Below, in pieces: positions 637 to 19,155 of a DNA stretch of 20,239 bases (its first letter is position 1; the number at the start of each line of letters is the position of its first letter). Location: IMG/VR virus record IMGVR_UViG_3300001533_000905, positions 1-20,239 of that record; one strand, written 5' to 3'. The notes below the pieces were generated by a model that was not told the DNA's origin, did no database searches, and was given only the letters and a program-made list of their open reading frames with translations. Source of the stretch: a virus. Both the position numbers and the translations under genes were made by a program.

Positions 637-1284
637 TCACCGAAGCCCGAACCACACAATGCGGGCACGCTCAACATCCGCGCTAGAGGTGTCCGTGTAA
701 TTAGCAAAGTACACGGTAACCTCATCATTCTGCTCTAACTCCATGAGGTACATGCTTTGCAACTTGCCGACGGCGGCAATCGTTACGGTCGCATTGCACT
801 CCGTCGCATCAATCGGGGTGCCATTCAACGCCAACTTAATACCGAACCGCGTCTTAATCGTAGGCGACATGTCCGCCGTAGCCACCACGTACGCCCACGA
901 GGAACCAGATGCCGTGCGCTTCAAACCAAACGAGCCAGCAGTAGATAACGACGTACCCACCGCACTGGCTGAGTCAAGCGTCCCACTCAAGCCACTATTA
1001 ATAAACGTTCCCGTAGCAACCCCACTAAAGTCAATACTTCCAGTCACGGTGCGGTAGGCCACGCCCCGAAACTGCGGGGCATCCGCACCAGCAGGACCCG
1101 TAGGACCAGCAGGCCCAGTAGGACCCTCTTGGCCCTCAAGCAGCACCCAGTCCGTACCATCCGTCTCGTAAAACAGGCCGGTATCCCGCACGTAGAACGC
1201 GGTACCCAACTCAAACGCGCTCGGTGCAGGCAAATCACTGTATTCACCCACCGACGGTAAGTAACGCAAACGCTTCGTTGTCAC
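637..1284 (-). CDS. Short tail fibre with collagen-like stretch and C1q/TNF-like tip
   Basis: The 215-residue product has three parts. Residues 1-50 contain YSDLPAPSAFELGTAFYVRD and a TDGTDWVLL motif, commonly seen at the start of phage receptor-binding or appendage proteins. Residues 51-68 form six Gly-X-Y triplets (GQEGPTGPAGPTGPAGAD), a short collagen-like trimerisation stem. Residues about 72-215 look like a beta jelly roll of the C1q/TNF type, with RFGIKLALNGTPI, NATVTIAAVGKLQSMYLMEL and NDEVTVYFANY before a final strand, RARIVWFGLR. This would form a trimer binding the cell surface or decorating the tail. It starts at GTG overlapping the previous stop (GTGA). Confidence 0.75.
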   Translation of the reverse strand: MTTKRLRYLPSVGEYSDLPAPSAFELGTAFYVRDTGLFYETDGTDWVLLEGQEGPTGPAGPTGPAGADAPQFRGVAYRTVTGSIDFSGVATGTFINSGLSGTLDSASAVGTSLSTAGSFGLKRTASGSSWAYVVATADMSPTIKTRFGIKLALNGTPIDATECNATVTIAAVGKLQSMYLMELEQNDEVTVYFANYTDTSSADVERARIVWFGLR

Positions 1285-4200
1285 CGGTTACCCCCAAACA
1301 CACGATTCGCTGCACTTGCCAAATCCTGATAAGGACCATACTCCCTAATAAATTCCTCTCGCAACTCCTCAATCCGGGCAAGCAACGCATCCGCCTCATC
1401 CATGTCACCCCGACGCACAGCAGCCGAACGACGCTCCCTCAAATCCCGCAATTTCTCATCAAACTCAAACCGCAACGACCGCATAGGCTGACGAATATTC
1501 TGGCCCTGCACACCACCCTGCGTCACAGCCCGCGTAGAACGAACAAACGTAGTGAACGCCTCAGCAGCCAACCCACGGTCAGGCATCCGACCATACGCAT
1601 CCATCATTGCCTGAGCATTCTCACCAGCACTACCCGGCAACGTAAACACGTTACGCGCAAGTGAAGGAATCAAACCACCAGTCGGTTCACCCACACCACC
1701 CGGCATCACAAGTTTCCTGGCGAAACCCGGAGCAAACGACTCGTAAATAAACTTAGCCAAACCCTGCAACTTCTCACTATTATTCGCGCTAGGCGTCCAC
1801 ACTTGACGACCAAACCGTTGACCATACGTAGCCGTACCATCCGACTCATCCCACGCAGCCAAACTACTCACCACGTCATACAACGGACCCCACAAACCAC
1901 CCTGCTCCAACTGCTCCGTAACAAAATTACCAGTCAAACCCGACAAACCATTCGTCATCAACATTTGACCAAGAGGCAAAAACTGCCAACCAACCCGATT
2001 ACCATCCGCATCATTAATAGGCCACAAAGGAACGTACTGGTCGCGCCGCATCCAATCATTCATGCCGCCCCACAACGCTAATTGCTCCTCCTCCGTAGCC
2101 ACATTCGCATTCCACACGGCCTCACTCACCCGGTCACTAGCAGCCAACACACCCGGACGACTCCACGCCGCATTAAGTGTCCTACCAATCATGAACGCAG
2201 GGAACGAAGGAAACAAAATCAAGCCCGTATCCCGCATGGCCCTAATCGCGTCAGGCTGCGCACCATAATCAAACACCATGAAACGCGCGTAATCATACGC
2301 CTCATCCTGATTCAAGCCACGCTTCAACGCCTGCCGGTACGCAGCCACGCGAAACAAGTTCTCACTAATCTCAAACGGTTCCAGACCCAACGCACCAATA
2401 CCCAACGGTTTACGCACCACGTACTGCTGGTAACCGCTATACAAACTATTCGCCAAGGCCTTCATGCCATCAACAGCGGACCGCTCATCAATAAACTGTT
2501 GCGCCTTCAAGTCAGGAGCCACCCGCAAAATATCAGCCTGCGACAATGTATCCCCAAGCAACGGACCCACCGCACGAAAATCATCCAGATTCCCAGCACG
2601 CAAATCTCGGTACGCCCCCAGCATTTCCGACGCCAAACTCACAGGATTCTGCCCATACAAGAACGCCGTAAAGAACCCGCCAAGCACGTTCGTAGTTGTT
2701 GTTGCAGGGTTAGCCAAGTAACCCCCAGTCACCATTGACCTAAGCATGGCTGCACCCCGAACAAACTCGTTCGGGCGTTTAGCCTTCGCCATCAAATTAT
2801 TCAACTCCCGATACAACATTGGGTGAACCTCAGTGCCCGCCAAATCCCCATAAATATCCCGCTGTTTACTACTAATCCTAATAAAGCCCTTAGGTTTCGC
2901 GCCCTTACCCCGGTACACAAGCAACGGATTTGCGCTTGCGTACTCCATAATTTTTTGGAGTTGACGCTTCTGACTCACGACACGCTGAGCAGCACTTGCA
3001 CTTTCAAACGCAGAAACAAACGGGTCCAAACCCTCAACCAACGCATCAAGAAACGGGGCATCCAACTCCATGTTCCGCTGCCTAAACGCGCCACCCGACA
3101 CACCCATCGGCAAACGCGGGTCCGCGCCCTGCCCAATGCGAGGCCCATACCGCTCCTCCATGAACCGACGAACATTACCCAACACATTCCCAACCGTTTC
3201 ACTATCATCCACTTCCCGCATGAACCGCTCAAACCACAAGTTAATATCATCCGCACCAAAACCCTCACGCAAAAGGTAATCCTTCAACTCCTTCTGCCCA
3301 AGAGCCACACCAAACTGACGACCATCCCTAGACACAGGCGTCGACATTTTAAAAAAACGCTGCACACTCTGCGTAATAGCAGGCAAATCCTGCATCAACG
3401 TACTACCCTCACTCACGACCGCTTCATCCACCACGTTCTTCAGGACGACACGCCCGCGCTCCATTTGACGCAACATGCTCTCGTACGATTCCGCGTTATT
3501 AAACATGCCGAACGAGCGACGCAAATGCCCATCCATCAAACTATTAAAGTACGACTGCGGTTTAAGCGCACCCTCCGTCAAAGTCTCAAGCAACTCAAAC
3601 GATTGCCTACCCGTAAACGCATTCGCAACCCGCTGCGTTTCAGGGATACGCAATTGACGCGCAATCGACCGAGGAATAGGGAACGACTGACCATAAAACT
3701 CATCAAGTTTGCCAAGCAAACCAGACTCAATACCTTTACGCCAAATTTTTGCTGCCCAATCCTGCTGCGCTTGACGACTCCACACGTTATCCAACTCCGC
3801 GAACCGAGGGTCAGTCTCCTTAAGGTTCTCCAACCACCGAATCGGTTGCGCAATCGCTTCTTCACGAACGTACGGAAGCATGCTAGTCTGGTAACCCAGC
3901 ATTGCGTCACTCTTCATAATGTCATCCACCGTGGCACGCAACAAACCAGCAGCAATATCAGGGTCATCCCCATTACGGACCGCAAATTCACGCACCGCAC
4001 TCATTTGTTCATCAAACAAATTGCGTTGCGCCGGGAAACTTTCAGCGGTCGCTTCACGCAAAGCCTGCCTGCTGCGCAACAAACGCCGGGTTTCTGCAAC
4101 AAATTCGCCTGCCACACCCATGCTAGTGACAGCCTCTTCACTCAAGCCCAACAATGGACTGGTTTGCCCCACCACACCATAAGCAGCGCGATGCACATTC

Positions 4201-5300
4201 CTTAGGGTAGGCATAGAGACATCCGCCTCCGCCAACCGTTTAGGAATATCCCTGAAATGCACAGTTTGTGTGCGATTCATTTGCTCAATCAACAGCTTAG
4301 CCCGCTCATCACCCTGATTCGCCATCAAACGAGTAATGACACTCACAACCTCGCCCGGTGTTTCACCCGCTTCAAACTCAGCGCGACTCAATTCACGAAC
4401 AAGATTCGGGTCCCTACCCGCATCCACCATAAACAAACCAGCCGGAGTGGTAACCCGACCACCCGGCAAAGTAATAGGTTGATATTGCAACCAGTTAGAA
4501 ACACCCACACCAACTTTCGCAACCTCATCCATGCGGGTCTGCACAAACGACCTTACTTCAGGCGTCAACAAATCCGCGTACAATTGTTGCGTCCGGGTCT
4601 TAACCGCGTTCGCAACCTCCGTATCAGCCTTCCAAGCAGCCCGCACACCATCCAAACGCCCCGTCAAAATACCGGCAGCCGTACTCTCCCTACCAATTGC
4701 AGACGGGCGACCCACAATATTCGTCACTTGCCTCACGCTACGCGCGGTAGGTACACCACCCGCCAACAAAATAGATTGCGTAACGTCATCCACACGGTCC
4801 GCAGCCCGCATCAACCCATCAACACCACCCGCCGCTTTTGATACGCCACGCAAGTACGCACCCATAAGCAGTGGGTCCAACGCCAAATCCAACGCAATAC
4901 CACCGTATTGCGCAACCTGCTCATCCATTACACCCATCGACTCAAGAATCGACCGGCCAGTCGCTACACGCTTAGGAGCTTCAGTCCACGGAGTGTACTT
5001 ACCCCACTCCATCTCCCGAAAATTATCCCAAACAGATTCCTCTTCAGAATAAATACCTTCAAGAACACTGAACAAAATGTCTTGCGGTAACTGCAACGGC
5101 GACAGTAATGCACCCACGCCACGCAATCCACGCATAGCAACATCAGTAGCCCGCTCACCAAACCCAACATCAACATCTTGCTCTGCACGAATTCCAGCAA
5201 TCCGCTCACTCAATGGAACACGACGGAATGATGTTTCCCTGCGAAACGTATCTTCACGTTCCTCTGGAGGATTAAACAACCAGTCGTAAGAGTCGGCCAT
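1281..5300 (-). CDS. Very large ejection (internal virion) protein, gp16-like by size and place
   Basis: At 1339 residues this is the largest product in the window and probably the main ejection protein. The N-terminus is charged (LFNPPEEREDTFRRETSF), and the body is mostly helical. A hydrophobic stretch occurs near residues 855-890 (MVTGGYLANPATTTTNVLGG, then FFTAFLYG). Near 1000-1045 is YARFMVFDYGAQPDAIRAM followed by LILFPSFPAFMIGRTLN. This resembles a C-terminal region shared by large internal proteins and polyvalent phage proteins, in which FDY...FP(F)Y...R motifs recur (I recall it as the LPD38 type). The C-terminus is a charged coiled coil (LRDLRERRSAAVRRGDMDEA). No lytic transglycosylase signature was seen. 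The ATG overlaps the previous stop by one base and the stop overlaps the next GTG by four. Confidence 0.68.
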   Translation of the reverse strand: MADSYDWLFNPPEEREDTFRRETSFRRVPLSERIAGIRAEQDVDVGFGERATDVAMRGLRGVGALLSPLQLPQDILFSVLEGIYSEEESVWDNFREMEWGKYTPWTEAPKRVATGRSILESMGVMDEQVAQYGGIALDLALDPLLMGAYLRGVSKAAGGVDGLMRAADRVDDVTQSILLAGGVPTARSVRQVTNIVGRPSAIGRESTAAGILTGRLDGVRAAWKADTEVANAVKTRTQQLYADLLTPEVRSFVQTRMDEVAKVGVGVSNWLQYQPITLPGGRVTTPAGLFMVDAGRDPNLVRELSRAEFEAGETPGEVVSVITRLMANQGDERAKLLIEQMNRTQTVHFRDIPKRLAEADVSMPTLRNVHRAAYGVVGQTSPLLGLSEEAVTSMGVAGEFVAETRRLLRSRQALREATAESFPAQRNLFDEQMSAVREFAVRNGDDPDIAAGLLRATVDDIMKSDAMLGYQTSMLPYVREEAIAQPIRWLENLKETDPRFAELDNVWSRQAQQDWAAKIWRKGIESGLLGKLDEFYGQSFPIPRSIARQLRIPETQRVANAFTGRQSFELLETLTEGALKPQSYFNSLMDGHLRRSFGMFNNAESYESMLRQMERGRVVLKNVVDEAVVSEGSTLMQDLPAITQSVQRFFKMSTPVSRDGRQFGVALGQKELKDYLLREGFGADDINLWFERFMREVDDSETVGNVLGNVRRFMEERYGPRIGQGADPRLPMGVSGGAFRQRNMELDAPFLDALVEGLDPFVSAFESASAAQRVVSQKRQLQKIMEYASANPLLVYRGKGAKPKGFIRISSKQRDIYGDLAGTEVHPMLYRELNNLMAKAKRPNEFVRGAAMLRSMVTGGYLANPATTTTNVLGGFFTAFLYGQNPVSLASEMLGAYRDLRAGNLDDFRAVGPLLGDTLSQADILRVAPDLKAQQFIDERSAVDGMKALANSLYSGYQQYVVRKPLGIGALGLEPFEISENLFRVAAYRQALKRGLNQDEAYDYARFMVFDYGAQPDAIRAMRDTGLILFPSFPAFMIGRTLNAAWSRPGVLAASDRVSEAVWNANVATEEEQLALWGGMNDWMRRDQYVPLWPINDADGNRVGWQFLPLGQMLMTNGLSGLTGNFVTEQLEQGGLWGPLYDVVSSLAAWDESDGTATYGQRFGRQVWTPSANNSEKLQGLAKFIYESFAPGFARKLVMPGGVGEPTGGLIPSLARNVFTLPGSAGENAQAMMDAYGRMPDRGLAAEAFTTFVRSTRAVTQGGVQGQNIRQPMRSLRFEFDEKLRDLRERRSAAVRRGDMDEADALLARIEELREEFIREYGPYQDLASAANRVFGGNR

Positions 5301-8074
5301 TACTGACCGCCACCACCAACCGGCGTTTCATCATCCTGACCAAGCCACCAATCAATTCTGTTTTGCACACCCGTACCACTTCTTTGAAGAAACTCAGTAA
5401 ACGGGTCCACAACACGACCCTGAAACAACTCACTAGTATTCCTACCAAAACTGTAGACCGCATCATTCACCGCAGCAGCCCGCTCAGCACCACGCCCACC
5501 CGTCAAATCAATCCCACCAGTACGGTCAGGCGGTGCGACAGGCACAGAAGTAAACTCGCCAGCCGTCAACGGAATGTCACCCATATCCCGCAACATCATT
5601 TCCACCTGACGCATAAGTTCATTACGCACATCCTCCTGAATACCCTCATCCATGTTCGGCAAGAAATTATTAATAAGGTTTTCCGCAAACATCATAGGAG
5701 TCATTTCAGGACCCAACAAATTATTCTGGAATGCGTTACGCACCTCACCCGCAATCGTGGCCGCACCCACCTCAATCTCACTATTAGTAGGCGCCCAACC
5801 CTCAGGCAACTCCGTACTAACCAACGCACCCAAGAAATCATCAATCTGATTAATCGTGTTCACAAAATCAGTATCAAGTTCCACCAAGGAATCCATAATC
5901 GCCATGCACGACTCGGAACCCTCATTCTGAGCAACACCATCCGCGTCAGGCAAACAACCATTCGCGCGAGCCTGCGACTCAAGATTAATACGCCGATTAT
6001 TAATACCGTCAAGACGAACATCAAGCAACAAACGACCCGCATTAATAGTTTCTAACGAATCATCATCCACTTCTTCCAACGCGCCAACACCAAACTCCTG
6101 AACAATTTCGTAAGCAGCCGTAACCTTCGCATTCTCAATCTCCCGCTGCATACGAACAATCTCATCCTGCTCATTACCCTGCTCCCAAGCCACACCAAAA
6201 CTCCTGGCAAACTCATTAGCAGCCTCATCACCCAACACGGGAGCCAAAATGTCTTTCACTTCCTGCTGCATTGCCGCAATGTTTCCCTGAGAAACATCCA
6301 TTTCAGCAAACGCATTAGCCCTACGCCACGCAGCCTGAAACACAGCGTCACTCTCAAGAATACCGCCAACCTCAGACTTACGTTTAGCACCCTCAATAAG
6401 ACCCGCAGTTTCCTCAGGAGTACCAAACATCAAACGCTGACTTTCAGGCAAAGAACGCCACCAATTATCAATCGCTTCAGGCGTCATGTACGCAGCGCGA
6501 GAATCAAGAATACTCATGACCGCAGCCGTACGCTCAGCCTCACCAAGCACACCCTGATTCGCAATCGCGCTATTCAACTCAGCAATCGCCAACGTATTCT
6601 GCAAATCAATAATATCGCCCGCCGTACCAGCCTCAACAATTGCTTCATCAACAACACTCGTCAAGTTAAGGCGACGCAAAGTATCCCCATGATTTGTTTG
6701 CAAACTCGTCAAGAACGCAACATCACCCATCGTAATCGCGTTCGCAATACGAGTCCGCATGGCATCCGTGTTCGCCATATCCACATTAAACTTCATGTAC
6801 GTAGCAGCGTACTCATCCGCATCGTACTGAAGTTGCGCACTAGCCAAATCAATCCCCGAAATTTCAGCAGCCGTACGTTCACGCTCAAGACGCAACTCCA
6901 TCAATTCACGATGCTCACCAGCAAGAACCGCCTGCGCATCCTCAAACGACAATGCAGCACCATTCTCATCCCGCAACGGACTATTCTGATACATGACTCG
7001 CACTGAATTAGCCAAACGCTCATCCGAAGGTAGAAACCCGTACGTTTGGAAAGCCTTCCAAGCAGCATCCTCATTGCCGAACACTACGCCTGACAATGCA
7101 GCCTGCGCAGACTCGTAATCCAATTCCTTAAACTTGCGGTAAAACTCCCTATCCACCCCCATTTTTTCGCGTTCCCAATCAATAATTTCCGTGCGAAACC
7201 TAGACTCCTCAGTAACAGCAGTACTTCTTGCACGCTCTTCCTCAAGCAACCTCAACGCATCAGGATTTTCTTGCAACGCAATATTTACTTGGTCAACATA
7301 AGACTGGTAAGTAGCAACATCAAGTGTTTCAGGCAAATTACCTGACTCAAGAATTCCAGTAATACGGTCAGCAGCCAACCCAGCGCTCACTAACCCAGCG
7401 CCAGTACCCGCATTCAAACCTGACTGCAACAAACCCAAGTCACCATCAAGCAAAGCCGCGTTACGCTCAAGAGTTTCAAGACTATTCTCGTACTGCGTAT
7501 TCATGTAAGACGCATACGCCTTACCCTGCGATAAAATTGTACGCATCGTCAAGGGCGCATCAAGCGCTGCGATAGCCGTACCATCCGCAATATCCTGCGC
7601 ACTAAAAATATTTCCAGGAGTACCCGCAGGCACAATCTCCATGTTCAACGTCTCATCAACAAGACGCCCCCAATCAGCAGGGTTAGCACTACGAACTGTG
7701 CTCCACTGAGAAGCAGCCCGAACCGCTGCATTGTACTCAGCATCCGACACGGCATTAGGATTCTGTTGACGCAACAAGTCAAGACTGGATACCAACTCAT
7801 CAGCCTGCTGCGTGTAATTATCAATAACCGGAGCGTACTGCAAACCCTTCTGGTACTGCTCCTGCCGACTCCGCTCATACATCCCAGCAAAATCCTGAAT
7901 ACCTGTAGCCACAGCACCAAAAATGTTTTGCGTAGCCTCCGCATCAATTTCTGCTTGACGAGCCTGCATCTGCAAAGCCATCTCATCATTACGACGCTTT
8001 GTTTCAGCCTGCATAATAAGAGACTCAGCAAGGTCCCTAAGGGCTGAACGGTAAGGAGTTCTCCAAGAAGCCAT
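5300..8074 (-). CDS. Large helical ejection (internal virion) protein, gp15-like by position
   Basis: The 924-residue product is predicted almost entirely helical, acidic and rich in Ala, Glu, Asp, Asn and Gln. There is no signal peptide, membrane segment or enzyme motif that I can recognise. The N-terminus is amphipathic (YRSALRDLAESLIMQAETKR), and repeated helical segments run through the middle. A pair of Cys lies near residues 705-725 (in NGCLPDADG and SESCMAIMD), and the C-terminus is Gly-rich (PVGGGGQ). Placement between the gp14-like and gp16-like genes, with a two-base gap before it and a TAATG overlap after it, supports a role as a middle ejection protein forming part of the trans-envelope channel. 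That role is inferred from order and from what is known of T7-type virions. Confidence 0.6.
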   Translation of the reverse strand: MASWRTPYRSALRDLAESLIMQAETKRRNDEMALQMQARQAEIDAEATQNIFGAVATGIQDFAGMYERSRQEQYQKGLQYAPVIDNYTQQADELVSSLDLLRQQNPNAVSDAEYNAAVRAASQWSTVRSANPADWGRLVDETLNMEIVPAGTPGNIFSAQDIADGTAIAALDAPLTMRTILSQGKAYASYMNTQYENSLETLERNAALLDGDLGLLQSGLNAGTGAGLVSAGLAADRITGILESGNLPETLDVATYQSYVDQVNIALQENPDALRLLEEERARSTAVTEESRFRTEIIDWEREKMGVDREFYRKFKELDYESAQAALSGVVFGNEDAAWKAFQTYGFLPSDERLANSVRVMYQNSPLRDENGAALSFEDAQAVLAGEHRELMELRLERERTAAEISGIDLASAQLQYDADEYAATYMKFNVDMANTDAMRTRIANAITMGDVAFLTSLQTNHGDTLRRLNLTSVVDEAIVEAGTAGDIIDLQNTLAIAELNSAIANQGVLGEAERTAAVMSILDSRAAYMTPEAIDNWWRSLPESQRLMFGTPEETAGLIEGAKRKSEVGGILESDAVFQAAWRRANAFAEMDVSQGNIAAMQQEVKDILAPVLGDEAANEFARSFGVAWEQGNEQDEIVRMQREIENAKVTAAYEIVQEFGVGALEEVDDDSLETINAGRLLLDVRLDGINNRRINLESQARANGCLPDADGVAQNEGSESCMAIMDSLVELDTDFVNTINQIDDFLGALVSTELPEGWAPTNSEIEVGAATIAGEVRNAFQNNLLGPEMTPMMFAENLINNFLPNMDEGIQEDVRNELMRQVEMMLRDMGDIPLTAGEFTSVPVAPPDRTGGIDLTGGRGAERAAAVNDAVYSFGRNTSELFQGRVVDPFTEFLQRSGTGVQNRIDWWLGQDDETPVGGGGQ

Positions 8075-8076
8075 AC

Positions 8077-9900
8077 TTACCTGCCCCTCGTAAAGAACCG
8101 TTTATTCGTTGATGTTGTTTTTGACGGCGCACTCGTAACCTTCTTCGTAGAAGGCCCTGGAGTAAGGGACGCGCCAGTAGCAGACGTTGTCCAGGTAGAA
8201 CCACCTTGAGTACCCTTCGTAGTAGCACGCGAGGTAGTGCTACGCCAGGTTGTTGTACCAGACCCACCCTGAGTACCCGTCGTAATACTACGAGACGTAG
8301 TTGTTCTTGGTTTGGTAATACTACGAGACGTAGTTGTTCTTGGTTTGCTAGTGCTCGAAGAAGTTGTTCTTGGTTTGCTAGTGCTCGAAGAAGTACCAGA
8401 AGTTAACTTCTTAGAACTATCCGTAGTGGTTTTCTTTCCATCCAAGGAAATAAACGTATTTGCGGTTCTAGGTTGAACAGCGGCAGTAAACCTGCCAGAA
8501 CTACTAGTAGTCCGATTAGAAGTGGGTGGAGGCGGAGGAGGAGTTCGTGTAGAACTACGAGGCGCAGGCGGAGGAGGAGGAGGAGTTCGTGTAGAACTAC
8601 GAGGCGCAGGCGTAGGCGTCTCATTAATATTCCTACGAGTAATCGACCGAGTAGGAGCCGTATCCTCACGCTCACGCGCTGCACTACTCGCAGAACGCGC
8701 CGCTTCACGACGAGGCTCAACAGCAGGCGTAACAGGATTCTCCAACGCACGACTCGTAGTCTTTTTAGGTTCAGGCGCAGGAGGCGGAGGACGATTCGCG
8801 CCAATACTATTAAAAAAATTGTCTTTAACGCCAGGCATCCTCATAAGCGTATCCTTAAGCGTAGTACCCGACTGCTGCTCGCCATCACCATAATTACCGC
8901 CAGGCACATTCCAACGACGCCGATACTCCTGCAACAAATTCTCAGACCGAGACAAATCCAACGGCGCATTCGCACCAAACGCCTCATCCTGATAAATATT
9001 CCCCATTTGCATCGTCCGCTGCATATTAAAGTCCGCAACAGCCTGCGCTTGCTCCATATTCATACCCGCAGCCTGAAGTTCCGCCACCTGATTCGCGCGA
9101 GCAGCATCAAGCATTGCAGACTGATTCGCCAACGCAGTCTGCATACCCATTTCACCAGTAGCAATATCCGCACTCAAACCAGCCTGCTGATTCGCCAACG
9201 CAGCCCGCAACAACGCATCCTGATTCGCCATTTCACGCTGAGTAGACAACCCACCAGCACCCTGATAAATATTTGCGGCACCCGTAAGCGCCTGCATACG
9301 CTGCTGACTAATATCCCTAGCCAACCCAGCCATCACATCCCCAGCCATACCCCGAGCCTGCATTGCACCAAACCCGCTACCACGCACACCCTGAGCAGCA
9401 AGCATTGCATTCAACGACTCGCCACCCACATCCAACTCACGCATAGCAGCCCGACGCAAATCAACGCCACTATCCTGAGCAGCCAACTGTTGAGCAATAT
9501 CCCGCATAGCGCCAACATCTACTGATTCACCCAACGTTTCGGCACCCACACGCTCCGCCGAAATAGCAGCCGGAGTCGCAATTTGTTGAGCCTGAATACC
9601 CATAGGGCTTACAGCCTGAAACTGCGGACCCTGCAAACCCTCAAACAAACCAACAACATCCTCAAGTTTCCCCGCGCGAAACGCGGCCTCCTGCTGACGA
9701 CGACGCTGCTCCTCAAGACCAGCCTCCATCCCCAACACAGCGCCCTCACGCTGAAACTGAAGTTGCTCCTCAGACATTTCCTGCTGAGTTTCAGCCTGCT
9801 TTTTAGCGGCAGCAGACTTCTGAGAGGCGGCCTGCGCAGCACCAATAGCAGAAACTGCTGAACCGCCAAACAAAATAAGTGCAGTAAGTGGGTCAATCAC
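8077..9900 (-). CDS. Ejection (internal virion) protein, gp14-like, with a basic low-complexity tail
   Basis: At 607 residues this is probably the first of three ejection proteins that cross the cell envelope before the genome. The N-terminus (residues 5-25, LTALILFGGSAVSAIGAAQA) is a hydrophobic Gly/Ala segment like that of podophage gp14-type proteins. Residues about 28-320 are helical, Gln/Ala/Met-rich. From about 365 the character changes: PPPPAPEPKK, then two 14-residue units (SSTRTPPPPPP type) and a tail of about 140 residues rich in Ser, Thr, Arg and Lys. The tail contains near-identical units such as TSKPRTTSSS and SRSITKPRTT, and ends FFTRGR. The tail is strongly basic and probably disordered. 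The start is GTG with GGAGG nine bases upstream. Family membership is inferred from order and composition. Confidence 0.65.
   Translation of the reverse strand: MIDPLTALILFGGSAVSAIGAAQAASQKSAAAKKQAETQQEMSEEQLQFQREGAVLGMEAGLEEQRRRQQEAAFRAGKLEDVVGLFEGLQGPQFQAVSPMGIQAQQIATPAAISAERVGAETLGESVDVGAMRDIAQQLAAQDSGVDLRRAAMRELDVGGESLNAMLAAQGVRGSGFGAMQARGMAGDVMAGLARDISQQRMQALTGAANIYQGAGGLSTQREMANQDALLRAALANQQAGLSADIATGEMGMQTALANQSAMLDAARANQVAELQAAGMNMEQAQAVADFNMQRTMQMGNIYQDEAFGANAPLDLSRSENLLQEYRRRWNVPGGNYGDGEQQSGTTLKDTLMRMPGVKDNFFNSIGANRPPPPAPEPKKTTSRALENPVTPAVEPRREAARSASSAAREREDTAPTRSITRRNINETPTPAPRSSTRTPPPPPPAPRSSTRTPPPPPPTSNRTTSSSGRFTAAVQPRTANTFISLDGKKTTTDSSKKLTSGTSSSTSKPRTTSSSTSKPRTTTSRSITKPRTTTSRSITTGTQGGSGTTTWRSTTSRATTKGTQGGSTWTTSATGASLTPGPSTKKVTSAPSKTTSTNKRFFTRGR
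8282..8393. repeat. Tandem coding repeat in the tail of the first ejection protein
   Basis: Two identical 33-base units (8282-8314 and 8315-8347) are followed by a related 30-base unit (8348-8377) and a partial fourth (from 8378) sharing CTAGTGCTCGAAGAAG. All units stay in frame and encode SRSITKPRTT and STSKPRTT-type motifs. Near-identity at DNA level suggests recent duplication by slippage or unequal recombination. Confidence 0.85.
8529..8612. repeat. 42-base direct repeat encoding a proline-rich unit
   Basis: Two copies of a 42-base unit encode SSTRTPPPPPP preceded by APR (14 residues per copy). The shared core runs through GTTCGTGTAGAACTACGAGG in both copies, with a GGA-rich part that encodes the proline run on the minus strand. 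The reading frame is kept. The exact edges of each unit are approximate. Confidence 0.8.
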
Positions 9901-9917: not shown

Positions 9918-12551
9918 CTAACGCTCACGATAACGAATCGCGTACTCAATCACAACGGGTGGCTCAACCACCAAATCCGTTGTTGCGCCAGGAAACTTTA
10001 ATTTAAGGTCCGCCGTAGGACCCACAAGACCACGCGGGAGAGTAAATACCCAACGACCATCACCATTATCAAGACCAGTAACCGAACCCGAAAAACCACG
10101 AATCTCATACTCCAACTCCGGTACACCGTCACCAGTACCCCGAGTAAACACCTCAACACGACGCCACAACTTCATAGTGTCCTTCACACCAAAATCAAGT
10201 TGACGCCACTCAACCTCAGGCGTATCCACCAAACTACTATCCACAACCTCAAAGTACCCATTCACGTTATAACGAGTGCCATAACGCCCACAATCACAAG
10301 CAGCAGACAACCACCGCAACCCATCAACCTCACTAAAAATGTCGGTCAACCACGATTGCCGCGTCGTATCCAAACGATAAACCTTCCCAGACCGCGTCAA
10401 CCCCACCAAATGATTACGGACAGGCTCACCAACAACCTGAATAAACGGGTCCGACGGCAACCACACAGGCGTCGAAATATTCACCATCGTCCCACCAAAA
10501 TCAACATCCCCGCCACCAAGATTAATCGCGTAAATCTCACCACGATAAATCGGCATAACCACACTACCCATCCTCGCAGGAATAACACCCCTATCATTAC
10601 CAACCGTGCCACTCAAACGCTGCACATTCAAATTTTGCGTAGCCGGGTCACCCCGAACCAAGAACGTTTCATTCTCCATAAACACAAGCAAACCAGCAGG
10701 CGTGCTTGCCAAGCCCGTAATACTAGTACTCGTCAGGGGTGATAACACCAAGAAATTATTAAGGGTCCCGCGATTCACGGCCCCAACGGACGAGTACACC
10801 AGCGTAATATCCGGGTTCACAACCGGGCCAAACCCAACATCAGGTGACGCTGGACCGTACCGAACCACCATGTTGTACCGACTATTCGTAGTCCACGTCT
10901 CAGCATTATCACTACTACTCGTCCACGTCGTCAAACTCGTTGTCGGGTCGTAATCCTCAATATCCCCAAGAACATCCACGGCAGCGCCATTACCCAACTT
11001 CACGCTCTTAATTCGCAACTCACGATTACCAAACGCCGCGTCAGAAACAAAATCAGTAGGCAACTTACCCAACGCAAACACCTGATTCGCGCTCGCCGTG
11101 TAGGCCGTCCAGTCCGTGTACGCGCTCGTATCCGTACCCACGCTCACACCAGTAATCGTTTGCGTGTACGAAATAGCGCCACCCGTAATTTGCACAAACC
11201 CTTCACTCGTGATAGAGCCGTCACCATTATCCGTAACGGAATCCAACTCAAACCGCAACACAATATTCTTAGAGTCCCGGGAACTATACTTACTTGTACC
11301 CAGAATCACCTGAGTCAAAGTAATTTCTTCATCAAAAATAGTGTGCGCCGTCGTGCCATCCGCCGTAAACAAAATCTTCAGGTGCGGATACTCATTATCG
11401 GTAGCCCACTCAAAGTACGCCCACATTCGCTTATCCGCATCCGCAGAGTGGTAATAATCAAACAAACCAACCACGACAGGCTTATCAACCCGCGTGCGCT
11501 TCACGTAAAAACGTTTAATATCAAACTCAATATAATCATTATTTGCTTTAAGGCCATTATCGCCAGACGCAACCGACCCGTACTGCCTTAACTCATCAAA
11601 CCCGTCCTCCGACAGCATCATAAAGCCACCACTGCGGGTAACACTGGAGTCCGACAAAAACGGAATGAACGGTGTTGGCCTGGCTTTACCCCAGACTCGG
11701 CCATTGTGGGCCTCAAGGCGGCCTGGGCCAAAGTTCACAATTACATCCTCGGTAGGCAACCAATCCGTACCTGGTTCACCTAAAGTTGCGGACGGCGCGT
11801 TCTGCCCATCACTAATTGCAATAGCAAAACGCTCCATTGTCGCGCTACCCGAAGGCCGGTAGTAAAACCGTGCAGCCGTACCCTCCTCATACACCTCACT
11901 CAACGACACGGTAAGACTCTCAATAGTCGCGGACACCGTGTAGGAGTCCCTACCAATCTCCTCGATAGCCGTACCGTTATCCGTCACGCCCTCAATCAGC
12001 CACAACACCTCGTACGTATCCGCAGGCAAACCAGTACCCGCATTTTCCGTAAAGGTTGCCGTGCTTGTAGCACCCAACGTAGTAAACCCGCCACTCGACC
12101 TAAACAAGTACGACTTACCGATATACCCATCATGCGTACGTTGCCACGGGCTTACCAATGCAGACCGAGGAACAATAAACAAATCCGTTTGATTCTGAAA
12201 CTCCGCGCTAGTAATGCTGCCAAAATGGTTGTTAACCCACATGGCTGGACCCGTTAAGAGTGTCAGGTCATGCTCATCGTAAGCAAGTTGCTCACGGTCA
12301 TCAAGCGCGGCTGCGGGGCGCCATGTAGTGGCGACAAGGCTGCTGTCCTCCATCAAAATGTAGTCGCTAGTCTCAAGCAGCATGAGGGACAGTTCACGCT
12401 CACCAAGCCAACTATCATTAATACCCCCCAGGGGTATGTAACCACCCGTTCGTTTCAACGAGAAACCTTTAACTACGTCAGGGTTACCGCCAACACCGTC
12501 AACATTATTGCGGTTAACGCCACCCAAATTTTCAATGACGAACCGCTCCAC
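9918..12551 (-). CDS. Tail nozzle / tail tubular protein B-like, with an inserted beta domain
   Basis: The 877-residue product most resembles the nozzle proteins of short-tailed phages (T7 gp12/P22 gp10 functional class), which form the tail channel. The N-terminus begins with a repeat-like segment listing gene-specific sites (RFVIENLGGVNRNNV), followed by a beta-propeller-like region. Typical nozzle signatures are GRLEAHNGRVWG near 277-288 and, after a long gap, LVYSSVGAVNRG near 584, ITGLASTPAGLLVFMENETF near 611, and GEIYAINLGGGDVDFGG further on. Between these, about residues 300-565, sits a separate beta-rich segment (for example FDIKRFYVKRTRVDKPVVVG and MWAYFEWATDN) that looks like a lectin/jelly-roll fold. 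The start is GTG two bases after the previous stop, with GAGG ten bases upstream. Confidence 0.75.
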   Translation of the reverse strand: MERFVIENLGGVNRNNVDGVGGNPDVVKGFSLKRTGGYIPLGGINDSWLGERELSLMLLETSDYILMEDSSLVATTWRPAAALDDREQLAYDEHDLTLLTGPAMWVNNHFGSITSAEFQNQTDLFIVPRSALVSPWQRTHDGYIGKSYLFRSSGGFTTLGATSTATFTENAGTGLPADTYEVLWLIEGVTDNGTAIEEIGRDSYTVSATIESLTVSLSEVYEEGTAARFYYRPSGSATMERFAIAISDGQNAPSATLGEPGTDWLPTEDVIVNFGPGRLEAHNGRVWGKARPTPFIPFLSDSSVTRSGGFMMLSEDGFDELRQYGSVASGDNGLKANNDYIEFDIKRFYVKRTRVDKPVVVGLFDYYHSADADKRMWAYFEWATDNEYPHLKILFTADGTTAHTIFDEEITLTQVILGTSKYSSRDSKNIVLRFELDSVTDNGDGSITSEGFVQITGGAISYTQTITGVSVGTDTSAYTDWTAYTASANQVFALGKLPTDFVSDAAFGNRELRIKSVKLGNGAAVDVLGDIEDYDPTTSLTTWTSSSDNAETWTTNSRYNMVVRYGPASPDVGFGPVVNPDITLVYSSVGAVNRGTLNNFLVLSPLTSTSITGLASTPAGLLVFMENETFLVRGDPATQNLNVQRLSGTVGNDRGVIPARMGSVVMPIYRGEIYAINLGGGDVDFGGTMVNISTPVWLPSDPFIQVVGEPVRNHLVGLTRSGKVYRLDTTRQSWLTDIFSEVDGLRWLSAACDCGRYGTRYNVNGYFEVVDSSLVDTPEVEWRQLDFGVKDTMKLWRRVEVFTRGTGDGVPELEYEIRGFSGSVTGLDNGDGRWVFTLPRGLVGPTADLKLKFPGATTDLVVEPPVVIEYAIRYRER

Positions 12552-17054: not shown

Positions 17055-17257
17055 TAAGAACCTTTCCGTAACGCACGAACGTAAGTTTCTGTGTCCGCAA
17101 TCAAGTGGCGTAATTCCTTGATAGCGCCCGCAATCTCAAAGCCTTTAGTCGTATCGTGCTTCAACATTGCCTCCTCCAACTGATTCCGTCGACGCTCAAC
17201 CTGCTCCTCGAGATACCGGCGGACCGAAAGCAAATTGCTTTCATTCAGTGACTCCAA
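17054..17257 (-). CDS. Small coiled-coil protein of unknown function between portal and scaffold
   Basis: A 67-residue, highly charged protein that I do not recognise. It is almost wholly predicted helical, with segments such as SVRRYLEEQVERRRNQLEEA and ELRHLIADTETYVRALRK showing heptad-like spacing of Leu/Val. The stop overlaps the ATG of the next gene by one base (TAATG), which suggests translational coupling. The start is uncertain: the longest reading uses TTG at 17257, one base after the portal stop zone, with only a weak GGTGG-like ribosome binding site. A second in-frame TTG lies eight codons downstream. Small helical proteins between portal and scaffold are common in phages; some help assembly, but nothing here defines a role. 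Confidence 0.7.
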   Translation of the reverse strand: MESLNESNLLSVRRYLEEQVERRRNQLEEAMLKHDTTKGFEIAGAIKELRHLIADTETYVRALRKGS

Positions 17258-17259
17258 TC

Positions 17260-19155
17260 CTATTCACCACCCCCCACACGCATCTGGTTCATCATCCCGC
17301 TAAACTCAATCATCTCCGTATGACTCGGGATAGCCTGCGGAGACTGGGCCGGAAGGTAATCCGTCCAGTTGTGAATATCCATACTGACCAACCAATCCTT
17401 CATCGCATGCCAAAACGGCTTGTACTGCTGAGCCATCTGCAACGCCGGCATCATTGTCTGAAGAAGGGACTGCATTTTCTGGGCCCGCATCAACTTATCC
17501 GGCACCAACTGCGCACCGTTAGCAATCCACTCCATGTCATCACGCTTAGCGCTCGAAATAAAGAAACGACCAGCGGCCTTCTGCTGCTGAATCATCATTT
17601 CCACAATGATGTTCTGTTCCTCAGGCGCAAACATTACACCACTCGTTTGTTGAATGTACTCAACCATCCGGGCAGCAATATCCTCGTCCGACAACTCCGC
17701 GGAGGCAATAAGGAACTGGTCGCTGCCATTAAAGACTGGCATTACACCAGCCGGCTCAATCTTGTACTTATAAATAAGGGACCAATACATTTTTGCAAAA
17801 ATGCTGAGGTCATACGCAATATTGCTCAGGTCCTCAGCAAGCTTCTTACTTGCCGCATTCGTAACCGCATTAATTTCTGTGGCGCTACGCACCGTATTCG
17901 TAGGCACACCATTCAACTGCAAGTCCGAAAAAGTAGCGTCATCGCCCAGAGCGCGCGCGGTCTGCAAAAGGTTCAGTGCCTCACTAGCAGGCGGAATTTG
18001 AAGCGCGTACACAGACTGCTGAGGCTCACCCCGGGTAGGAATAACCATGCCTGGCGCAAGACCAGCCTCACTAATGTGCTCCCAAATTTGAGTGTTCTCA
18101 TCCACAAACACAGGCGGGGCAATCGCAAGTTGGTCATGCGCAATCTTGCTGTTGTACGCAAAGTCCATAATGTTCTGGATTCCCTCAAGGACCTGCGCGT
18201 ACGACTCACCATAAAAGTAACCAATGCGAGGCATGGGACGAATCGGCACGTACGGCGGGGCATCAAACACATCAAGGTACGGACTTTCCTCAACCCTCAA
18301 AATTTCTGTGAGGTTCTTGCTGTAAATCACCCGCCAAAGAGTGTGACCCATCTCCTCATTACCCCACCGGTAGTAACACTCCCACAATTCATGCAACTGA
18401 TTATCGTTCTGCCACGTGTGAACCCGACTGCCATCAGCAATCTCATCGTAATTTGGCATGGCCGTAATACTTGTCTTGATTCGTTGTGTTGCCTCGTAAT
18501 CGTACTCTCCAGCCTCAGCGCGTTCATTAATAATGTGCCAAGGCTCCATAAACCGGTAGAACGTACTAACTCGGCTAATGTCCTCAACACCCGCAGGCGC
18601 CACATGGAAATCCTCAAGGCGTACTGCTTTAGCCTGAACAAGGTACTCATCAAAAGGTTTAGCGACACTTAGTTGCATGACGCCAGTACCCGTGAGGCAG
18701 GCCTCTTCAATCGCCATAAAAATTTGCCGTTGCGTGGCACTGCGGTCCAACTCTCGCTCCATCATGGTTTCCCAGACAGGCTGGTTCTTAGAAGCCTCAG
18801 TGGTGTACGGGCGTACCGTGAAGAACGGGTCTTGGTTTAGTGCGCCCCTAAAGTGAGCGGTCGCGCCCGAAATTTTGGCGCGAATGTAAGGAACTACATG
18901 GTTAGGTGCTCCCTCGTAAGGTGGTGCTGGTTTATCAAGCGAGTAGTACTGACGGTACCTGCGGATACGTTCATCAATATTGACTTTACTGCCGACTGCT
19001 GCATCAAGGTCGCGCTGCAAATCAGACTTGAACTGCCCTAGAGTTTGTTCGCTAAACGCATCACTAATGGGTGGTTGCTCAGGTCCAAAGTCAATCACAT
19101 TGTCTTGGTTGGTTTCGATTTCCTGAACATCAAGAAATTCGCTCAGATTATCCAC
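17260..19155 (-). CDS. Portal (head-tail connector) protein
   Basis: The portal is a dodecameric ring at one capsid vertex through which DNA is packaged and ejected. At 631 residues the length fits portals of short-tailed phages. Supporting signs are the N-terminal segment rich in Asp/Glu/Gln, the block PYEGAPNHVVPYIRAKISG near residues 79-97, FFTVRP near 111, and the segment FYGESYAQVLEGIQNIMD near the middle, which resembles the portal stem region. The C-terminal third is rich in Gln and Met (for example EMMIQQQKAAGR) and is probably helical, as in portal barrels. The gene follows the terminase directly, which is a common arrangement. The start is GTG with GGAGG six bases upstream. Identification rests on overall character and position, because portal sequences diverge strongly. 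Confidence 0.9.
   Translation of the reverse strand: MDNLSEFLDVQEIETNQDNVIDFGPEQPPISDAFSEQTLGQFKSDLQRDLDAAVGSKVNIDERIRRYRQYYSLDKPAPPYEGAPNHVVPYIRAKISGATAHFRGALNQDPFFTVRPYTTEASKNQPVWETMMERELDRSATQRQIFMAIEEACLTGTGVMQLSVAKPFDEYLVQAKAVRLEDFHVAPAGVEDISRVSTFYRFMEPWHIINERAEAGEYDYEATQRIKTSITAMPNYDEIADGSRVHTWQNDNQLHELWECYYRWGNEEMGHTLWRVIYSKNLTEILRVEESPYLDVFDAPPYVPIRPMPRIGYFYGESYAQVLEGIQNIMDFAYNSKIAHDQLAIAPPVFVDENTQIWEHISEAGLAPGMVIPTRGEPQQSVYALQIPPASEALNLLQTARALGDDATFSDLQLNGVPTNTVRSATEINAVTNAASKKLAEDLSNIAYDLSIFAKMYWSLIYKYKIEPAGVMPVFNGSDQFLIASAELSDEDIAARMVEYIQQTSGVMFAPEEQNIIVEMMIQQQKAAGRFFISSAKRDDMEWIANGAQLVPDKLMRAQKMQSLLQTMMPALQMAQQYKPFWHAMKDWLVSMDIHNWTDYLPAQSPQAIPSHTEMIEFSGMMNQMRVGGGE

Follow-up and report, generated by a model that had tools for sequence, protein, structure and literature searches.

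A basic, repeat-containing and predicted disordered tail on an ejection-type protein of a podovirus-like phage

The ejection proteins of phage T7 offer a comparison in gene order. In the T7 core stack gp15 holds gp14, which leaves before the other core proteins and becomes inserted in the outer membrane; gp14-type proteins are about 200 residues long (181–240 residues in 14 phages), and positively charged C-terminal residues of T7 gp16 are required for infectivity (PMC8954989). A different layout is found in ejection protein gp44 of phage 80alpha, in which a helical N-terminal region is followed by a mostly unstructured, basic C-terminal region, and in which DNA is bound by the C-terminal domain and not by the N-terminal domain (PMC7290940). 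For PhiM1, disordered loops of the ejectosome that carry positive residues have been proposed as anchors of the last-in DNA (PMC11440229).

The window analysed here, a stretch of 20,239 bases, corresponds to positions 1–20239 of a 21,447-base IMG/VR viral record. Its structural genes are all encoded on the minus strand and follow one another as TerL, portal, scaffold-like protein, two small proteins, MCP, two adaptor-like proteins, nozzle-like protein (877 aa; 9918–12551), a 607-aa protein (8077..9900, GTG start), a 924-aa protein (5300..8074), a 1339-aa protein (1281–5300) and a fibre. Compared with T7 genes 12–17 this is the T7 order, without an equivalent of gene 13, and the T7 genes before gene 12 follow the same order of portal, scaffold and capsid. 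The gene of the 607-aa protein sits between the nozzle-like gene and the two genes for large proteins, a slot that is the same in the window, in the related contigs L008 and L009 (see below) and in T7 (V01146, PMC8954989). Here gp14-, gp15- and gp16-position serve as names of slots only, and the scaffold, nozzle and ejection roles are putative assignments by position. The portal matches Pfam family PF23899 (SU10_portal) and one adaptor-like protein matches PF24175 (SU10_adaptor), families of the type found in Kuravirus SU10, in which the ejection proteins are gp20–24 (PMC9509320). Long open frames of 350–501 codons on the plus strand (8473–9525, 2823–4205 and 17167–18672) lie opposite real genes, and are probably shadows of their codon usage.

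The 607-aa protein consists of a helical core and a C-terminal tail. The core (residues 1–365; 8806..9900, minus strand) is predicted by AlphaFold, from the single sequence, to form long helices between residues 4 and 307 with pLDDT values up to 95, and FoldIndex ranges from +0.08 to +0.19 in residues 1–320. Within the core, residues ~223–279 (9067..9243, minus strand) contain 11-residue (33-nt) repeats starting with ANQ (ANQDALLRAAL/ANQQAGLSADI/.../ANQSAMLDAAR/ANQVAELQAAG), a hendecad coiled-coil pattern. No Pfam, PHROG or PDB match was obtained for the protein, nor any match in IMG/VR or, by tblastn, in the collection of GenBank phages when it was used as query; Foldseek with the model found nothing usable in the PDB. 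One Foldseek match in BFVD (E-value 6e-6) was dropped, as its TM was 0.08 and it is a probable composition effect of the low-confidence model. Within the collections searched, the core is a family of its own.

The earlier note had implied membership of the gp14 family, an assignment with which gene order alone agrees. The 607-aa protein resembles T7 gp14 in being rich in Ala and Gln, and T7 gp14 also ends in a short, basic K/S/T-rich stretch of which the last codons are at the same time a ribosome-binding site, as is the case here. The similar ends, '...TRGR' here and '...KTGR' in T7, were rejected as a sign of homology because both are encoded by the ribosome-binding site of the next gene. 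T7 gp14 has 196 residues versus 607 here and lacks the long tail; the homologues in two relatives have 435 and 434 residues, and only that of L008 (227 residues) falls within the size range of the gp14 type. In a crude hydropathy test a single hydrophobic peak (KD19 at least 1.2) was found at residue 4, and none in the homologue of relative G003, versus four or five predicted transmembrane helices in homologues of T7 gp14. Furthermore, alignment with T7 gp14 gave an SW score no different from the mean of the shuffles, and the hhalign probability is 0.1%. The gp14 label thus denotes gene position only, as the comparisons of size, hydrophobicity, sequence and profile with T7 gp14 all fail. With SU10_21 the core gave a z-score of 3.6, better than all 200 shuffles, for two sequences that are both rich in Ala, Gln and Asn; this weak, composition-biased resemblance is no more than suggestive of kinship with SU10 gp21, which would fit a portal and an adaptor of the SU10 type. 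SU10 gp21 and gp22 have no tail of like length or charge (the maximum in SU10_21 is +5 per 80 residues).

A search with the MCP led to eight related contigs, three of which (G003, L008 and L009) cover the gene of the 607-aa protein; the contigs L002 (MCP 98% identical) and L003 (94%) end before this gene and fall outside the tail comparison. G003 (IMGVR_UViG_3300002733_000139) is the closest relative covering the gene, with an MCP that is 86% identical and, in the same gene slot, a homologue of 435 residues, followed by L008 (MCP 70%, 227 residues) and L009 (MCP 69%, 434 residues). The core (residues 1–335) is homologous in all three, with SW z-scores of 22.7 for G003, 8.3 for L009 and 7.2 for L008, and none of 200 shuffles scoring as well; for G003, a translated search gave an E-value of 4.8e-17, with 53% identity over residues 131–212. 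The G003 alignment skips the repeat segment at 9067–9243, suggesting that addition of 33-nt units may have lengthened the core as well. The tail, on the other hand, has no counterpart in any of the three, with nil similarity by SW, and neither L008 nor L009 carries a comparable tail. In G003 the core is followed by an unrelated C-terminal sequence of 220 residues (216–435), neutral to slightly acidic (pI 4.7) and rich in Pro, Thr and Val plus Ala or Gly, with loosely repeated motifs and no tandem DNA repeats; it is predicted to be mostly coil at low confidence with a short helix at the end, in a model that is poor overall (pLDDT 44). The view of the earlier note that typical gp14-like proteins lack such a tail therefore holds for a basic tail in these relatives and in T7 gp14, but G003 has a long Pro-rich C-terminus of its own and T7 gp14 its short basic end. 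In these alignments it is the C-terminus of the protein that evolves fast, and within the collections searched the length and charge of the basic form are lineage-specific. Insertions of low complexity are also seen in the ejection-type protein next to it, as the gp15-position protein of L009 (16580–19567) contains a long Pro/Ala run near residues 821–900 with an entropy of 2.5 bits. A further contig, L020 (JAABRY010000201.1; 4.3 kb), has a capsid gene that is 74% identical and was binned in a Gemmatimonadetes MAG; as an indication of the host this one binned contig was considered too weak.

The tail (8077..8805, minus strand) is first Pro-rich and then rich in Ser, Thr, Arg and Lys. The earlier note had recognized this switch from helical sequence, but its estimate of some 170 residues was too short, since the tail starts at about residue 366 (8805) and comprises 242 residues. 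The predictions run here bear out its description of the tail as basic and disordered. The isoelectric point is 12.0 and the net charge +31, with 41 Lys/Arg and 10 Asp/Glu next to 56 Thr, 39 Ser and 33 Pro, and not a single Met, Cys or Tyr; the most basic half, residues 466–607, has 24 Lys/Arg versus 2 Asp/Glu. Its most basic stretch of 80 residues carries +14, the highest value among the structural proteins examined, for which the maximum was +10 elsewhere in the window (gp16-position protein), +11 in T7 gp13–16 and +11 in SU10 gp18–24. Sequence entropy is below that of nearly all these proteins, and is lower only in the Pro/Ala run of L009. FoldIndex of the tail is -0.235, and nearly all of it has pLDDT values of 30–44 with almost no predicted secondary structure; in a single-sequence AlphaFold model such values are weaker evidence of disorder, and the composition agrees with them. 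The tail does not correspond to a known domain in these searches: on its own it matched nothing in Pfam, PHROG, the PDB or phages, and had no homologue in the collections searched. Four viral contigs with the codon pattern of KPRTTTSRSI were discarded as chance matches, being unrelated frames of 22–45 codons on contigs without an MCP. An overlapping gene was also rejected, since codon shuffles equalled the open run of 133 codons in another frame in 71% of cases, and that of the antisense strand in 83%.

Part of the tail consists of short tandem repeats. TRF detected units of 33 nt (3.0 copies, 8282–8377), 30 nt (3.1 copies, 8299–8394) and 42 nt (2.1 copies, 8528–8616), the unit lengths of the in-frame repeats reported in the earlier note. 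On the minus strand, the 42-nt tandem duplication encodes APRSSTRTPPPPPP twice (residues 432–459; 8524..8607) with 95% identical DNA, the 30-nt duplication encodes SSSTSKPRTT twice (residues 504–523; 8332..8391), and the 33-nt duplication encodes TSRSIT+KPRTT (8282..8347; 33-mers 8282–8314 and 8315–8347). The latter two pairs are identical even at silent sites, while a GTQGGS pair with a spacing of 63 nt (8197..8301) is older and has diverged to 81% DNA identity. The claim that the tail is built of repeats is correct in that the repeats are real, but they do not cover all of it: short repeats span only part of the 242 residues. The tail contains 63 pairs of repeated 15-mers, all 63 at a spacing that is a multiple of 3, as compared to a mean of 1.0 (maximum 12) in synonymous-codon shuffles that keep both protein and codon counts, a mean of 0.004 in codon shuffles, and at most 3 in any stretch of 729 nt of the window outside the tail. 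The DNA identity is thus far above what a repetitive protein requires, showing that the tail was made by DNA duplication and not solely by selection on the peptide. We conclude that it grew by recent in-frame tandem duplications, as the earlier note had proposed.

An assembly error, i.e. a chimeric or mis-expanded repeat, has to be considered for a single metagenomic contig of which the tail has no second copy in the collections searched. The arrays are, however, less than 100 nt long, shorter than one ordinary short read. Moreover, none of the repeats breaks the reading frame, and the next gene follows at a tight junction: the stop codon lies 2 nt ahead of the next ATG (8074), and the end of the tail (8078..8090, minus strand; coding strand ACGAGGGGCAGGT) provides a Shine-Dalgarno-like AGGGG/AGG just ahead of it. 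For these reasons an artefact is very improbable. As these codons double as ribosome-binding site, the last residues TRGR are doubly constrained.

The duplications could also reflect a nearly neutral process, in which a permissive unstructured end takes up and sheds low-complexity sequence by slippage or unequal recombination, drifts in composition and acquires charge without a specific role. This would fit tails that are wholly different among relatives with 70–86% identical MCPs, duplications so recent that silent sites are still the same, a GC3 of 0.34 in the tail versus the 0.52 expected for these residues from the codon usage of the phage, and low-complexity stretches in other proteins of the group, such as that of L009. 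It has to be taken seriously because the relatives do without the charge. Nevertheless, both the reading frame and the charge bias hold strictly along all 242 codons, with 24 basic versus 2 acidic residues in the last 142. Drifting low-complexity sequence is not bound to remain basic and soluble, and keeping about 730 nt is costly in a compact genome. On balance, we regard neutral expansion as unlikely.

We favour the reading that the tail is a flexible, threadable arm that may bind DNA or another polyanion non-specifically. This reading is preferred because the tail is basic (+31 in total, +14 per 80 residues) and predicted to be disordered, and because of the T7-like gene order and the precedents of 80alpha gp44, PhiM1 and T7 gp16. 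80alpha is a long-tailed phage, and as a Staphylococcus phage it has a Gram-positive host. Its gp44 and the 607-aa protein, compared by description, share a helical N-terminal part followed by a basic C-terminal part that is unstructured, as predicted here (PMC7290940); the tail in the window is repeat-built and rich in Thr, Ser and Pro, unlike the C-terminus of gp44, and the likeness drawn here is one of layout. On this reading, the 607-aa protein would be one of the ejection-type proteins inside the particle of a podovirus-like phage, with a shared helical core and a lineage-specific basic arm. We assign a probability of roughly 45% to this explanation as a whole, and the same to the proposed function of the arm. 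The protein would be packaged in the head, where the arm would stay unfolded and its 41 Lys/Arg residues could contact packaged DNA or another polyanion non-specifically. Through such contacts the protein could be kept close to the portal-proximal DNA. The unfolded arm might also thread the tail channel along with the leading end of the genome, and repeat duplication would be a cheap way to adjust its length and charge. Against a DNA-binding arm speaks that the core fits none of the ejection-protein families compared. The basic charge is also not conserved, as G003 has a non-basic C-terminus and L008 and L009 have no comparable tail, so that phages of this group can do without a basic arm.

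Inside the virion, the tail could alternatively pair with a protein. The adjacent gp15-position protein is strongly acidic (pI 4.3, net charge -79, -8.5 per 100 residues) and is a possible electrostatic partner, in which case binding might keep both proteins together in the core or order their delivery. The gp15-position proteins of L008 and L009, which have no basic tail next to them, have net charges of -36 and -20 (-3.8 and -2.0 per 100 residues), and the charges of nozzle, portal and MCP differ much less across the compared phages; the gp14–gp15 contact in the T7 core stack (PMC8954989) also fits. The extra acidity favours pairing, but with three phages compared it is a lead and not a result. 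The contig of G003 breaks off 62 residues into its gp15-position protein, and packaged DNA is a much stronger polyanion in the same space. Pairing is improbable. A wider proposal, for which we would likewise give low odds, sees the C-terminus as a fast-evolving disordered arm retuned by repeat expansion, which in this lineage might have become a histone tail-like polycation with a matching gain of negative charge in the gp15-position protein, tethering DNA or a partner during packaging and ejection.

Finally, the tail might act outside the virion as a leader that exits first, its positive charge binding outer-membrane LPS or the inner membrane and positioning a translocation channel. A long, unfolded, basic and Pro-rich chain could pass a narrow channel, and T7 gp14 sets a precedent by leaving first and entering the outer membrane (PMC8954989). 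The sequence contains no signal for such a role, however, and the core has few hydrophobic segments compared to the homologues of T7 gp14, which makes this role quite improbable.

Returning to the arm that may bind DNA, the basic tail is an unusual version of an already known kind of part. It bears on how ejection proteins of podoviruses are retained with the tightly packed DNA and released before it, and the cryo-EM maps with which these proteins are studied do not show disordered parts. A long, discrete basic arm, set beside relatives in which the arm differs or is missing, offers a clean comparison for the binding of DNA or a partner protein, and repeat expansion would be a fast route to altering an internal virion protein.
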